This document shows, piece by piece, positions 2,688-38,423 of a stretch of DNA of 38,725 nucleotides (the stretch's first letter is position 1; every line of letters begins with the position of its first letter). Source of the DNA: Candidatus Blackburnbacteria bacterium RIFCSPHIGHO2_01_FULL_43_15b (lineage in GTDB: Bacteria > Patescibacteriota > Microgenomatia > UBA8517 > UBA10165); assembly GCA_001816385.1 (NCBI GenBank), contig MHBW01000008.1, positions 1-38,725 of the forward strand, read 5' to 3'. The notes beneath the pieces are model-generated. The model had not been told where the DNA came from, did not search any database, and saw only the letters and a list, made by a program, of their open reading frames with translations. Position numbers and translations under genes: made by a program.

Positions 2688-3905
2688 CTAAAAGCCCATC
2701 TTTTTCAAGGCCAGACTGTAAGTATTTTCCCATGTATTGTTTTTCGCACGCTTGATTGCGTTTGCTCGCATCCTTTTATACAAAGCCTTATTCTTCAAAA
2801 GCCTCAATATCGCCCCAGCCTGGTCTTTTGGGTTGTCGAGAGCAATAATTCCTGCCCCATCTCGCTCAATCTCTTGACCTAAAGGCGGAACTTGAGTCGT
2901 TATAACAGGCAAACCAGAAGCCAGGTATAGCCTTGTTTTTGTTGCATCCGCCCACCAACGTGGAGACCCAGGAATTGCTTTGTAAGGCGCAAGGCCAAGG
3001 GCATATTTTCGTATTTCTTTGGATAACTTGACTTGATCGGTGAAAAAACCATGGAAAATAACTTTTTGCTCAAGCTTAAGTTTTTTAGTGAGGGCTTCCA
3101 GCCGTTCCAGGTCCGCCTGCCCTCCGCCGTATATATGTAAAGTCGTTTTGGGAAGCTTTTGTGCCACAAGTTTCAAAGCTTCGATTGCTAAATCAGGGCC
3201 ATTTTCCGGACCTAAAGTGCCTGCAAACACCAACCCATGCGGATCTATCTCAGATAAAGGCAGATAGTCAATTTGCTCCGGATAAAGTGCGTTAGGTACA
3301 TGGATGACTGGAGCAGACTTGTTTGGATTCAATCCCATCTTAATTCTGGCTGGTTGCATTGCTAGGGAGACATCCCAGATATAATCAGAATGGGTTGCAG
3401 CGAGCCGGTCGAGGGCTAGGTATAGGTCGTTAACCCATTTGGGTTTGTATCTGTTTGTGGAGTAATCTGAGACGTAATAAACGACAGTTGTACAATAACC
3501 CAATTTCTTGAGTATTGACCCCGCTAGCGCATTTATTGCTTCTAAACCTATAAATATGTCGTATTTTTTACCACTTCGTAGGACAAATTCCAGTACAGAG
3601 AAAAAGTCACGAAGTTTAAAAATAACCGAGGTTTGGGTTGATTTAACTGATTTTAAAAAAGGATATAGAATAAAAGAGGTAAGGAAGAAACGAGTCTCTT
3701 TTAGAGATTTCGTTCCGCGATAAACTTCGGCAAACGGCACCACACAATCACTGCCAGGGTGAGGTTGTTCTATCAAAGTAAAGTTGTGGGTTTTTTTCTT
3801 AAGAACTCCTAAAATAGGTTCTATCATTCCGTTGATGGAGGTGCGATATCCTTGTGTTCGAACAGAAAAAGTCGCGAACAAGATTGAATTTATCTTTTCC
3901 TTCAT
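2688..3905 (-). CDS. GT4-family glycosyltransferase with altered donor motif
   Basis: GT-B fold glycosyltransferase of 405 residues, cytoplasmic, expected to move a sugar from a nucleotide donor to a lipid-linked glycan. The C-terminal donor domain begins near residue 222 (HGLVFAGTLGPENG) and contains the usual helix-strand pattern (ALKLVAQKLPKTTLHIYGGG). The part that normally holds the E-x7-E signature reads ATKTRLYLASGLPVITT (about 321-337). By alignment to the common KxLEYMAxGxPVV pattern, the second Glu is Leu326. This may be a divergent GT4 subfamily or a weakened enzyme. A GGAG Shine-Dalgarno lies 5 bases before the ATG, and a TATACT box sits 13 bases upstream. First gene of the unit with the epimerase. 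Confidence 0.83.
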   Translation of the reverse strand: MKEKINSILFATFSVRTQGYRTSINGMIEPILGVLKKKTHNFTLIEQPHPGSDCVVPFAEVYRGTKSLKETRFFLTSFILYPFLKSVKSTQTSVIFKLRDFFSVLEFVLRSGKKYDIFIGLEAINALAGSILKKLGYCTTVVYYVSDYSTNRYKPKWVNDLYLALDRLAATHSDYIWDVSLAMQPARIKMGLNPNKSAPVIHVPNALYPEQIDYLPLSEIDPHGLVFAGTLGPENGPDLAIEALKLVAQKLPKTTLHIYGGGQADLERLEALTKKLKLEQKVIFHGFFTDQVKLSKEIRKYALGLAPYKAIPGSPRWWADATKTRLYLASGLPVITTQVPPLGQEIERDGAGIIALDNPKDQAGAILRLLKNKALYKRMRANAIKRAKNNTWENTYSLALKKMGF

Positions 3906-3918
3906 TTAAACTCCAATG

Positions 3919-3926
3919 AGTATAAT
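3919..3926. promoter_or_regulatory. Overlapping divergent -10 boxes
   Basis: The 31-base gap between two divergent genes holds TATAAT on the plus strand (3921-3926) and TATACT on the minus strand (3924-3919). The two hexamers share four base pairs. Expected start points, about 7 bases beyond each box, fall near 3933 (+) and 3912 (-), only a few bases ahead of the two start codons. No -35 element is convincing on either side. Promoter assignment is inferred from sequence only. Confidence 0.5.
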
Positions 3927-3936
3927 GCAATATTTT

Positions 3937-6900
3937 ATGCGTCGCAAGGTAAGTGACAATTTCTATTTGTTAGTTGTAGTCTATGTCGTTTTTTTGCTTG
4001 TGAGTTTGCTTTTTCTTTCACTAAGGTGGTTGCCACCTGGGTATGCATTGGCTGGGCATGACTCTGGGTTGCCATTGGGGGCAAAGCAATTTTTAATCAG
4101 TCGCTTATATGCATGGGATGATCGGCTAGGTTTTGGGGGTGACAATTCAGCTAACTTTGGAAGCATAACTATCCATTTCTTCGATTGGCTCTCTGCGATT
4201 GTCGCAGGTACTCCATATGCGGGGAATTATGTCTCGCTTTTCTTCTGGCTAAGCTTAATTTTTCTATCAAGTCTATTTCTAGCTTACCAATTTAAAGATA
4301 GTTTGGGGAAGCCATTTATTTTTATTTTCCCTGTACTTGTCTCTATAAACTTTTACATTTTTCAGTCTATATTCATGCTGGAAAGGGCCAAATTTGGCGT
4401 TTTTTCTGCGACACTTATTTCACTTGCTGTATATTTCCGTATGCACGATAAAAAACTTTCTGTGGTATTATCGGCTCTCGTATCCGCGCTTGCTTTTTTT
4501 GTTTTTAACGGTGGTGGATGGTTTGGAATCACTTTATATGGAGGGGTAACGCTTATTCTGTTGACGACTCTAGTTTTTGGAGTTGTTAGTTTGTCGGCGA
4601 AAAGAACGGTAAAATTTATAGTGTTATGTGGTTTATTCTATGTTTTTCTTAATGCTTATTCCATATTCCCGTACCTTAAGAATTTTCTTGTTAACGATGC
4701 TGTACACCTTGTTCCTACTGCAGATGCGGAAAACAATAAAAATTGGCTTAGGGACATAAGTCGACACGCTTCATATTTAAATCTTTTTAGGTTACAGGGC
4801 ATTCCCGAATGGTATGGTGATGTGGACGGGGCGACAAAAGCAAATTCTTCTCACGTATATGCTCAATATTACCTTGACAGTTTTACATCAGTTGTCGCGA
4901 GTTTTATTTTTCCACTGTTAGCGCTTGTCGGCTTACTTTTGGCTAAAACAAACAAGCAAAAGCGGATCCTTTCTTTTTTTGGGTTGGTTGCTTTAATAGA
5001 AATGGTGTTTACAGCTGGTTCGCATCCCCCTCTTGGGGGCTTTTATGAATTTTTAATGGATAGGCTACCCGGTTTTTTCCTCTTCCGATCTGCTTTTTAT
5101 AAGTTTGCAATTTTTTACATGCTGGGTATGTCATTGTTGGTGTCGTTTGCGTTGAGCATTATAGTAGAGAAGTTAACTACCCTATGTATAGGGCTATTGT
5201 TTCCATTCAAGTTAAGACAAAGCCAGGTCTGGTTTTGGGCTAGGTTGGCATTCTTTTCTCTATTTATCGCAGCAATTGTTGGGTTATGGTTGAGCTATCA
5301 TTGGGTACTATTTGGTACTAATGGGATTTTTGCTTGGAATTCCAATCTTTCAACTAAAGTTGAACCACCATCGTATATTTTTGACTTTGCGGATTGGACG
5401 CGGAAGAACAATGTTCAGGATAAGAGAATTCTTATGTTGCCGCCACCCAGTAAGGATTGGCAAAATGACGCTTATGATTGGGGCTATTGGAGCCTTTCGC
5501 CGTTAACCTCTTCACTTAGCTCTGCTCGAGTTTTGTCTAATTGGCATGTCCTCAACGATGAAGAAGTTAACGTCATTAATGAACTTTATAACTTTGTAAA
5601 AAATAAAGATGAACAGAACTTTACTCGGCTGTCGCAGAGGTTAAACATAGGATATGTGTTGCTTAGACGGGACGTGCTTGCTGATGGCAGTTGGTCATCC
5701 GCAGAGGGCACGGATGGTTACAAAGCAGCAGTGGAGTCTTTCGCGAACACAGAAAAACTAAAAGTATTTGGACAGTGGGATTTGTATCAGCTTAAATCTA
5801 ATAATCCATTACAAGTTTATACACTTGCTTCGGTTAATTCGATACCTGACAACCTTATCACTCTGGCAAATGGTTTTTTCCCATCGGGGCACGCTGTGGG
5901 CTTATCAGCCGCTAAAGCGTATAAGGGAGTTGAACAATTAAGCGCTAACAAGATCGATGCTTTTGATTGCTTGTCGTGTTTGCTTGAGAAGCAAACACTT
6001 TTAAAAAGTCTTCCGGAAACTAATATATTGCCCAATTCTCCTCTCTATTATTTTAAATTTATGAAAGAACAAAAAGTTCTTAGGGAATCAAAAGAGTCGA
6101 GGAGTAAAATTGGCAATTATCTTGGCTTGATTTTGAAACGTACAGCTGAACTCAAAGCTATGCTTGATACATCAGCTAGCGAAAGTTTTGTAATGGTAAA
6201 TGTAAGTGTCGTTAGGTCTTATCTAGACCAATTATACGATACTATTAGTGTCAACAAAAGCAATGCATATGATTATGAGTTGTTGAGGCAAGTGTTAGAT
6301 TTTTTGAACCCGGTGGAGCATGAGGTAGGTGACTTTTCAAAGGGAAATATGGCAAAAACACATAGTTATCGTTTCAATGAAGAAATGCTGGGAATTCTTT
6401 GGGATATACACAAAATAAAGGACTTTTTCAATCCGCTTTTAGAAAATTCCCGCAATTGGCCACAGGAAAAAGTCTATAAAATTAGTTTTCCTCAAGCTGG
6501 TCTTTATACACTGTATTTTTCTTCTCAAGCATTTCCAAGAAACCTAGAGGGGGGTGGAATTTTACCCAAAGCTATAAGGCTTAAAGAGAAGGATGGAGAA
6601 AAAGAACTTCCAATTGGTGGTCAAAATAATGATTGGATCAGCTTAAGTATGGGCCAACAGGATGTGGGTGAAGTAGAGTTAAAATTGGAGTTTCCAAGTC
6701 TGCCTAATTTATTTAGTATCGAGGGAGAGAGAATTGAGCAATTTCCCTTTGGGAGGAATGCTTGCTATCGCGGTAAAATACAAGGTTTTGACAAGGAACG
6801 GCTTTATGAGGTTCTTATTTCTAAAACAGACAGAACAAAAGCTGTAAAAGTTATTTTTAGGGATGATAATCGCGTATATTCGTCTAGGTACGGTTTTTTG

Positions 6901-32742: not shown

Positions 32743-34683
32743 ATGGCAAAAATCGAAGATATGCCCAAAATTGATTTTTCTGCTCCTGTGACGCAACCTG
32801 CGTCTGCTGCGCCCCGCAAAAGATTTTTTGGCAAGAAGATAGCTGTTCCGGTTTTTGGGGCAGTTGGATTGTTGGTAATTTTATTAATTTTTTTCTTAGT
32901 CTTGCCTCTCCTTTCAATCCGTGTTTCTGCTCAAAAATTGGCAAATTCTATGAAGGATTTGGATGCAGCTGCCTCTTCGCAAAACCTGACTCAGGCGCAA
33001 AACGCCCTTGATAAGACAAAAAAAGACCTACAATCTTTGGATGGCGATGTTAATAAATTAGTTTGGGTAAAATTTATTCCGGGGTTGGGTAATTATTGGA
33101 ATGACGCTAAGCACCTGACGGTTGGCGGAAGAGCGGGTTTAGAGGCAGGCGATACGATTATTCAAGCTATCGAACCATATAGCGACCTTCTTGGTCTTAA
33201 TGGCGGCCACAAAGCTGAAGATGGCACAAAAACGGCAGAAGAACGCATTAACTTCATTGTCGGGACAGTAGACGGCGTAATTCCCAAAATGGATGTTATT
33301 TCACAAAAGACGATTATCGCCTCTTCAGAAATTTCTAAAATAGATCCCAACAGGTATCCGGAGTATTTCCAGGGCAAGCCTGTTCGTTCTAAAGTTAGAG
33401 AAGCTATCGAGGCAGTTCAGAAAGCGCACGAGGTTTTAAGTGATGGCAAGCCTTTCCTGGAGCAGTTGCCATACCTTCTGGGTACCAATGGGGAAAGAAC
33501 CTATCTTATTTTATGGCAGAACGATAAAGAGCTTCGTCCCACAGGCGGTTTTATTACAGCTTACTCAATAGTTAAGGTAAATAAAGGCAAGTTTGAGCCT
33601 GTAAACTCTGATGATATTTACCAGCTGGATAAGAAATTTAATAGTAAAATCCCTTCTCCGGAACCGATCAAAAAATACTTGCCCCTTGTCCCCTATTGGA
33701 ATCTTCGCGATATGAATTTGTCCCCGGACTTTAAAACTTCTATGGACACCTTCTATCAAAATTATTCGACGATCAAGAATGCACCTCCGATTGATGGCAT
33801 AATTTCTGTCGACACCTATCCCTTAGTTGGACTTTTAAAAGTCATGGGGCAACTGGGAGTTTCTGGTTTTGGGAACTATTCAGCTGATAATGATTCGCGC
33901 TGCAACTGCCCTAACGTTATTTATCAGTTGGAGTCTTATGCCGATGTTGCCGGGCCGATTGTTTGGGATGATATCTCGGGCAAAATTGTCTATAAACCGC
34001 CTCATGCTGATAACCGCAAAGCCTTCCTTGGACCTTTGATGAATACTCTAGTTGCCAACGCGATGGGGCAACCAAAGGATAAGCTATCGAGTCTTTTCCA
34101 GGTAGGTTGGGATTCATTAACGCAAAAACACGTTCTTTTCTGGATGAAGGATGCCCAAGTTCAAAAAGCTGTGGAGTCGTTTAATGTCGCTGGACGCATA
34201 CAAGATACCACGGGGGATTTTCTGGCTATAAACGACACTAATTTTGCGGGCGCAAAATCTAATTTGTATGTCCAAGAAAATGTGACTCTTAACGTGGAGC
34301 AAAGCAAAACCGGAAGTACCAATTCGCTGACCATTAAGTATTCAAATCCGCAGAAGTACGATGGTTGGTTGAACGGGCCGTATCGGGATTGGATCAGGGT
34401 TTATGTTCCCGCAGGATCGACCTTGGTTGACTCAACGGGTTCGGATGTGCCGGTAACTACTTCGCAGGATTTGGGGAAAACTGTTTTTGAAGGATTTTTT
34501 ACGCTACGGCCGATGGGGGTAACGGAGTTGCATTTTAAGTACAAAACGCTTGTGGTTCAGAAAAAAGGCCACAAGATTCTGATTCAAAAACAACCAGGAA
34601 CAGAAGGGCATCAGTATGAAGTTCAGTTTAGCAAGCAAAAAGAAACCTTTGTGCTTACCTCAGATAAAGAACTCTCCTTCTAA
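32743..34683 (+). CDS. DUF4012 membrane-anchored protein
   Basis: Predicted 646-residue protein with a cytoplasmic proline/alanine-rich tail of about 30 residues, one helix (about 33-58, VPVFGAVGLLVILLIFFLVL) and a large outer part. A helical stretch with DLDAAASSQNLTQAQNALDK follows the helix. The DUF4012 core starts near residue 245: TYLILWQNDKELRPTGGFIT, then LRDMNLSPDFKTSM and IDGIISVDTYPLVGLLKVMG. DUF4012 resembles the LytR-CpsA-Psr group in its RxTGG-like loop, as far as I can judge; a role in attaching glycans to the envelope is therefore possible but unproven. A C-terminal beta-rich domain (YVQENVTLNVEQ, YVPAGSTLVDSTG) ends the protein. Short-leader promoter just upstream. Confidence 0.88.
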   Translation: MAKIEDMPKIDFSAPVTQPASAAPRKRFFGKKIAVPVFGAVGLLVILLIFFLVLPLLSIRVSAQKLANSMKDLDAAASSQNLTQAQNALDKTKKDLQSLDGDVNKLVWVKFIPGLGNYWNDAKHLTVGGRAGLEAGDTIIQAIEPYSDLLGLNGGHKAEDGTKTAEERINFIVGTVDGVIPKMDVISQKTIIASSEISKIDPNRYPEYFQGKPVRSKVREAIEAVQKAHEVLSDGKPFLEQLPYLLGTNGERTYLILWQNDKELRPTGGFITAYSIVKVNKGKFEPVNSDDIYQLDKKFNSKIPSPEPIKKYLPLVPYWNLRDMNLSPDFKTSMDTFYQNYSTIKNAPPIDGIISVDTYPLVGLLKVMGQLGVSGFGNYSADNDSRCNCPNVIYQLESYADVAGPIVWDDISGKIVYKPPHADNRKAFLGPLMNTLVANAMGQPKDKLSSLFQVGWDSLTQKHVLFWMKDAQVQKAVESFNVAGRIQDTTGDFLAINDTNFAGAKSNLYVQENVTLNVEQSKTGSTNSLTIKYSNPQKYDGWLNGPYRDWIRVYVPAGSTLVDSTGSDVPVTTSQDLGKTVFEGFFTLRPMGVTELHFKYKTLVVQKKGHKILIQKQPGTEGHQYEVQFSKQKETFVLTSDKELSF

Positions 34684-34689
34684 AGAAAG

Positions 34690-34744
34690 AAAAAGGCCGG
34701 GGTCCTACAAAACGCTTGTGTGTATCGCGTCGAGAACCCCAGCC
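34690..34744 (-). terminator. Rho-independent terminator, minus strand
   Basis: Arms at 34733-34744 and 34695-34706 pair over 12 bp in minus-strand RNA (GGCTGGGGTTCT with AGGACCCCGGCC, including two G-U pairs). A T-rich tail TTTTTCTTTCTTTA follows. Read on the plus strand, the same arms contain two mismatches and no T tail. The signal therefore belongs to the minus strand and to the small gene at 34763-34996. Confidence 0.75.
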
Positions 34745-34762
34745 TGCGGAGCAAAAAAAGTG

Positions 34763-34996
34763 TTAGTCCCGCGTGCGAGCCAGGTAGATGTGCGTAGGAT
34801 ATATCCCTACGACGCGAAAGCGATCTCCACTTTCGCTAACATCCGGTTCCTGAAAATAGGGTAGGAAGACGACTCCTGCACCCCCTCTACCCACGCCGGT
34901 CACCAGCTTGCCGTTAGGCAGCTGCAGCTCGTAGAGACCGCAGCCTGAGTCGGCACCTTCGCCGGCCTCTTTTGCGGACACATATCGTGCCGACAA
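34763..34996 (-). CDS. GC-rich small protein of unknown function
   Basis: A 77-codon frame on the minus strand with strong coding character: codons such as GGC, GCC, CTG, GTC, CGC, TAC and AAC prevail, unlike the AT-rich third positions around it. The product includes GCGLYELQLPNGKLVTGVGR, GVVFLPYFQEP and RFRVVGIYPTHIYLARTRD, which suggests a small beta-rich fold. The frame ends 19 bases before a minus-strand terminator. The start is uncertain: TTG 34996 or GTG 34981, neither with a Shine-Dalgarno. A minus-strand TATACT at 35048-35043 could be the promoter. No family is recognised. The foreign base use may mean transfer, but small genes of this kind may also be an old part of the lineage. Confidence 0.55.
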   Translation of the reverse strand: MSARYVSAKEAGEGADSGCGLYELQLPNGKLVTGVGRGGAGVVFLPYFQEPDVSESGDRFRVVGIYPTHIYLARTRD

Positions 34997-35066
34997 GAAG
35001 ACGACTATGTCTCACTCGCGCAAAACTACAATGTCAACCCATAGTATAAGGGAGGTGGAATAACTT

Positions 35067-35080: not shown

Positions 35081-35632
35081 ATGGAACAGAGAACTTACTT
35101 CACAGAAGGCGTGATTTTGGCCAGGAAAAACTTTGGTGAGGCGGATCGGCTTTTGGTTATTTTCTCCAAACATTACGGCAAGATTCGCGCTATCGCAAAA
35201 GGGGTGCGTAAGCCTGCTTCAAGGAAACGAGGCGCTTTGGAAATTTTTAATATGACTAAATTTTTGCTGGCGCGAGGTAAAAATTTGGATATTGTGACTG
35301 ATGTCGAAGCTATAAAAAACTTTGAAGAATGGCGGAAAGATTTGGTTAAAGTGGGTGTGGCCTATCATCTATGCGAAGTTGTTGACAGGTTAACCGTTGA
35401 AGGCCAGGAACATAAAGAAGTTTTAAATCTTCTCCTGGAAAGCTTTTCGGCTCTTTCGGGTGTGGACTATTGGCAACTTTATCCGTTGACCCAAAACTTT
35501 AAGTTGGAAGTATTGGAAGAGCTTGGGTTTTTATCAAAACACAAGCCTTCTCCTCGTGAAGTTGATGATTTTATTGAAGATCTTCTTGGCAGTAAACTCA
35601 AAACCTCCAAGTTCCTAAAAGTTCTTGCCTGA
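35081..35632 (+). CDS. recO: Short DNA repair protein RecO
   Basis: RecO loads RecA through the RecFOR pathway at gaps. The first 80 residues give the OB-fold with clear family marks: EGVILARKNFGEADRLLVIF, YGKIRAIAKGVRKPASRKRG. The helical part follows (VGVAYHLCEVVDRL, LTQNFKLEVLEELGFL). The protein has 183 residues against about 240 in model bacteria. The usual zinc-type Cys cluster and the end of the C-terminal domain are missing. The stop codon lies at the first bases of a dispersed hairpin repeat (35631-35654), so repeat insertion could have shortened the gene; alternatively, short RecO is normal for this lineage. Start codon is set by the TGCTAGAAT promoter. Confidence 0.88.
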   Translation: MEQRTYFTEGVILARKNFGEADRLLVIFSKHYGKIRAIAKGVRKPASRKRGALEIFNMTKFLLARGKNLDIVTDVEAIKNFEEWRKDLVKVGVAYHLCEVVDRLTVEGQEHKEVLNLLLESFSALSGVDYWQLYPLTQNFKLEVLEELGFLSKHKPSPREVDDFIEDLLGSKLKTSKFLKVLA

Positions 35633-38207: not shown

Positions 38208-38423
38208 ATGCGCGTCACGATAGCTTTCTTTGGCGTGATCATGCTGGGATTTGTCGTCTTTGATCGGGTAGCTCTTTGGCTATCCGCGTCTCCCAGCGTT
38301 TCTGTGGGTGTGTTCACGTATACCCAAATGACGGTGCAGGTGTTGGGTGTGTTTGGGGTATTGTGCCTGGCTGTCGCGATCTTCTGGGACGAAATCTTTC
38401 GGTACCTGAGTGGTACCAAGTAA
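38208..38423 (+). CDS. GC-rich two-helix small membrane protein
   Basis: Predicted 71-residue protein with helices at about 3-24 (VTIAFFGVIMLGFVVF) and 42-62 (VQVLGVFGVLCLAVAIFW), and tail DEIFRYLSGTK. A strong Shine-Dalgarno AAGGAGGG (38197-38204) fixes the ATG. Codons are rich in GTG, GTC, CTG, CGG and ACG, unlike the AT-rich glycan genes. A second small gene follows 11 bases later with its own Shine-Dalgarno. No family is recognised. A short membrane protein next to a coiled-coil protein recalls small phage or plasmid modules (holin-like), but no mobile gene is visible, so this is only an option. Confidence 0.68.
   Translation: MRVTIAFFGVIMLGFVVFDRVALWLSASPSVSVGVFTYTQMTVQVLGVFGVLCLAVAIFWDEIFRYLSGTK

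Follow-up and report, generated by a model that had tools for sequence, protein, structure and literature searches.

A probable lineage-specific small gene with its own one-sided terminator between DUF4012 and recO in a Patescibacteria genome

Introduction

In the genome of Candidatus Blackburnbacteria bacterium RIFCSPHIGHO2_01_FULL_43_15b, a gap of 397 bp separates a DUF4012 gene from recO. What fills this gap, and whether it is a protein gene, a structured RNA or DNA without function, is the question addressed here. Patescibacteria genomes are tiny, and a dispensable-looking gene that is retained in one of them together with a strong terminator of its own deserves explanation. An initial annotation had proposed an expressed minus-strand gene of an unknown family at this site. 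We analyzed the locus within its window, i.e., the whole stretch of 38,725 nucleotides of contig MHBW01000008.1 (assembly GCA_001816385.1), to which all coordinates without a contig or locus label refer, and compared it with the remaining genome and with related genomes.

Results

The gene arrangement is as originally annotated: a minus-strand frame of 77 codons with a TTG start (34996-34763) lies between two plus-strand genes. This candidate small gene (34763..34996) was delimited using the open reading frame listing, GC by codon position and coding classifiers. The DUF4012 gene (32743..34683, plus strand; Pfam PF13196, E 4.5e-22) is convergent with it; on the other side lies recO (35081..35632, plus strand; Pfam PF11967, E 5.6e-20), whose ATG has a -10-like TAGAAT a few bases upstream. 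Judged by their Pfam matches, both neighbors are chromosomal genes. The minus-strand frame is open for 82 codons from stop to stop, 77 of them counted from the TTG, and is overlapped by a plus-strand frame of 82 aa. GC content is ~58% over the frame, 53% over the wider gap and 43% over the genome, and the unit departs in base composition from its neighbors (58% vs. 43% GC).

DUF4012 and recO are adjacent in nine relatives, with a gap that mostly measures 3-41 bp; three genomes are exceptions. One (G001) has a GC-rich junction of 136 bp. A second (G004) has 261 bp with an unrelated 72-codon frame of acidic, repetitive content (L008 1246-1464, minus strand), which is preceded by TATAGT-ATCTTT-ATG, a leaderless-type signal, and has no evident terminator hairpin downstream. 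The third (G007) has 781 bp holding one frame (L011 2056-2836), which by eye reads like a staphylococcal-type nuclease. Because the gap in relatives is usually 3-41 bp, the 77-codon unit is lineage-specific, and the different inserts across genera make the junction look like a variable insertion spot. Such variability also fits non-functional foreign or decayed DNA, i.e., the remnant of a longer element in which frame and hairpin were kept by chance or descent.

Searches with the 77-residue protein returned only the protein itself from its own genome and no homologue from genomes of the order (57), the class (374) and the phylum (380). GTDB species genomes, scanned twice with a reach limited to close relatives, likewise gave no match, nor did viral contigs, plasmids and phages; Pfam, PHROGs and NCBIfam contained no matching profile, and the PDB no matching sequence. 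At the DNA level, the element matched itself alone among the class genomes, apart from two matches of 19-22 bases that were disregarded as chance. Residues 16-70 aligned with a protein of one class genome, which presumably resembles SAM hydroxide adenosyltransferases, at an E of 0.007 for one of 374 genomes, a value attributed to chance. Further weak matches in the class and phylum (E 0.004-0.02 per genome) were treated in the same way, those inspected being unrelated frames, some with internal stops. A PDB match to a T-cell receptor (E about 0.7) was rejected, as were Foldseek matches of a low-confidence fold model (E above 1); nothing solved resembles this model. The missing homologue favors non-functional DNA, and the initial annotation had named it as grounds for refuting a gene. 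As a refutation it is weak, because the genus is represented by one genome and the other genera of the family lack the unit.

Openness of the frame is by itself weak evidence for coding, since ~4% of random 77-codon stretches at the same composition are open, a frequency that again speaks for DNA without function, and since the overlapping plus-strand frame is open too. GC by codon position (1/2/3) is 0.69/0.48/0.60. Third positions had been described as GC-biased, and GC3 is indeed high for this genome (0.60 vs. a mean gene GC3 of 0.40; the exact value of 0.597 is reached by 1.3% of genes), but first positions are richer (0.69). Content was further assessed with classifiers that used amino-acid composition, bias between codon positions and the periodicity of hydrophobic residues and were trained on GC-matched fragments from this genome and E. 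coli. Among decoy open frames, 1.3-1.9% scored as high as the 77-codon frame; for random open frames the share was 0.4-1.3%. Of real gene fragments, 76-78% scored at or below it. Among structure-preserving shuffles, 3.9% were open, and 1-3% of these open ones matched the score. The overlapping plus-strand frame scored low by logistic regression (0.01-0.17) and middling by random forest (0.45-0.57). The content of the minus-strand frame thus groups with real genes and looks coding, a result at odds with non-functional DNA. A single-sequence fold model of the protein (mean pLDDT 46.7) contains five short strands, suggesting that the product is likely a small, soluble, beta-rich protein; its predicted tryptic peptides include EAGEGADSGCGLYELQLPNGK and LVTGVGR.

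Folding and a genome scan identified an intrinsic terminator stem-loop on the minus strand (34694..34745), which is separated by 17 nt from the stop codon ending at 34763. Its stem has 13 bp including two U-G pairs, with an additional inner stem of 5 bp; the arms pair 34745-34733 with 34706-34694, from A34745-U34694 through U34733-A34706, and the T-rich tail TTTTCTTTCTTT (34682..34693) reaches the stop codon of DUF4012 (34681-34683). The two U-G pairs and the T-rich tail were correctly noted in the initial annotation, which had given the stem as 12 bp and the spacing as 19 nt. Its statement that the hairpin is strand-specific holds as well: relative to shuffles, minus-strand RNA folds with a z of -3.9, whereas plus-strand RNA is less stable (z -1.6) and lacks a T-tail. 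Among the 667 terminator-like sites of the whole genome (hairpin-plus-T sites reaching -12 kcal/mol, both strands), this one ranks 16th at -24.2 kcal/mol. Only six equally strong sites lie inside 756 kb of genes, both strands counted, and consequently the expected number of such hairpins in the 100 nt after a given stop is ~0.0004. The terminator is missing from the list of the consensus scan, probably because the loop limit of that scan is 8 nt. A terminator of this kind would suit protein and RNA genes alike, and its strength, strand and expected distance past the stop argue against DNA without function.

A possible -10 box, TATACT, with a weak -35 upstream (35043..35048, minus strand) was recognized from the sequence and a pattern scan; the consensus scan listed no sigma-70 site for the unit. 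The TTG start has no leaderless signature nearby. Across the whole genome, Shine-Dalgarno-like motifs before starts show no clear enrichment (0.157 vs. 0.140 in shuffled sequence), and the most frequent position of -10-like boxes is 6 nt upstream of start codons, so leaderless transcripts seem to be common. Given the former result, the absence of a Shine-Dalgarno site before the TTG is not counter-evidence to translation.

Strong dedicated terminators are rare in this genome, being found at the -18 kcal/mol threshold in 12 of the 701 genes tested. They occur in 3 of 12 GC-rich genes vs. 9 of 689 others (p 8e-4), an excess which, on small numbers, suggests that several accessory genes arrived with terminators of their own. 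Other GC-rich gaps in the genome hold no copies of the 77-codon element. Comparable sites were recorded in passing. One gap holds a GC-rich orphan frame of 80 aa that is membrane-like (L037 4289-4531, plus strand), and 138 nt downstream of this frame is the genome's strongest terminator-like hairpin (L037 4669-4719, plus strand; -34.8 kcal/mol). Another contains a 98-aa frame (L059 2430-2726, minus strand; GC 56%) that is coding-like by classifier and matches neither Pfam nor PHROGs. At the window's end, a GC-rich frame of 71 aa (38208-38423, plus strand; GC3 0.64) resembles a membrane protein and has no Pfam match.

The same stretch could instead encode a structured non-coding RNA of ~340 nt, in which a closing helix surrounds a multi-branched fold, the terminator comes next and the open frame is incidental. 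Folding yields a possible long-range helix of 15 bp with several U-G pairs (35028-35014 with 34780-34764), whose 5' arm, UAGUUUUGC-GCGAGU (35014..35028, minus strand), and 3' arm, GCUCGC-ac-GCGGGACUA (34764..34780, minus strand), the latter overlapping the last codons and the stop, pair with weak significance (p 0.03 against shuffles). Minus-strand RNA from 34762-35028 has a fold z of -3.6 (plus strand, -2.6) with 0 of 200 shuffles as stable, and the putative transcript start would lie ~7 nt before the closing helix. Synonymous shuffles match this stability in only 1 of 1000 cases, which counts against a protein gene. However, the segment ends were picked after the fold was seen, ~1-2% of this genome's ordinary GC-rich coding fragments reach equal values (mean synonymous z -0.66, 1% quantile -3.5), and 1.2% of genes pair their two ends as strongly. 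Known RNAs of this genome fold lower (tmRNA z -5.3, RNase P -4.8), and no Rfam covariance model matched the element; a hit to Clostridiales-2 RNA was rejected at 14 bits vs. a cut-off of 58.6. A DNA search recovered tmRNA in 7 of 7 relatives, and a like search found the element in none of the other class genomes searched, which makes a conserved RNA gene unlikely. The element is also excluded as this genome's own tmRNA or RNase P RNA, which lie in L050 and at G000:C4:7770-8114, respectively. This RNase P RNA, clear yet divergent, scores 77.7 bits, whereas the class A cut-off in Rfam is 100. Among other RNA genes, the 16S rRNA gene (L033 3142-4878, minus strand) contains a group I intron (3851-4109), and another intron match lies at 2057-2254. 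The 23S match in L028 is 3908 bases long, so it too seems to contain inserts.

Discussion

We consider it probable, at about 70%, that the 77-codon unit is a stand-alone, lineage-specific protein gene with its own one-sided terminator in a variable junction. The frame, its composition, its terminator and its absence from relatives are direct observations; the missing homologues, non-ATG start, weakly matched promoter and low-confidence fold model weaken the interpretation as a protein gene. The best reading is a foreign or newly arisen orphan of moron-like build, presumably acquired by transfer rather than formed de novo. Coding statistics and the strand-specific terminator agree on an expressed gene, as initially proposed, but the term family is premature as no second member was found in the collections searched.

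In such a gene, a GC-rich unit of ~400 bp would occupy the variable DUF4012-recO junction, and transcription would proceed leftwards from a promoter near 35043-35048, with a start near 35035, divergent from recO. Translation would begin at the TTG with no Shine-Dalgarno site upstream, the usual situation in this genome, and yield the 77-residue protein, most likely a dispensable accessory. The one-sided terminator would end transcription immediately ahead of the convergent DUF4012 gene and so spare DUF4012 and the genes preceding it from antisense readthrough.

A lineage-specific RNA gene at this junction is possible, though we regard a structured non-coding RNA with an incidental frame as unlikely; the coding-like statistics of the frame would then have to be a coincidence. 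A coding-like RNA and a structured gene are similarly likely coincidences, and large RNAs that are orphans are much rarer than small orphan genes; for these reasons, a protein is preferred. Slightly more doubtful is a bolder proposal, namely that the unit belongs to a set of self-contained orphan cassettes, each a GC-rich gene with a strong one-sided terminator, moving between Patescibacteria junctions, or else that it is a lineage-specific large structured RNA carrying an open frame. Least likely is non-functional DNA, since in addition to the coding score and terminator, the boundaries of the unit fit exactly between two genes.

One-off orphan genes are common, and a single 77-codon gene, as an orphan of the common sort, is only mildly surprising. 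The DUF4012-recO junction, however, provides a simple site for watching the gain and birth of small genes across genera.

Among known systems, tmRNA and RNase P RNA are similar to the unit in transcript size, paired ends and a downstream terminator; unlike them, the unit is not conserved in the family, folds more weakly and has a coding-like frame. Phage morons are single genes with their own transcription signals and odd composition between adjacent genes (PMC4378225). Like the morons of temperate phages (PMC4378225), the 77-codon unit is a single coding region inserted where the genes of relatives adjoin, with its own terminator and deviant base composition. Unlike morons, it belongs to a bacterial chromosome, phage genes were not seen next to it and phage collections contain no relative of it; the candidate for a promoter of its own is TATACT (35048-35043) with a weak -35, the consensus scan listing none. 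ORFans and taxonomically restricted small genes share its short length, lack of homologues, odd composition and variable junction; what sets the 77-codon unit apart from them is its strong dedicated terminator.
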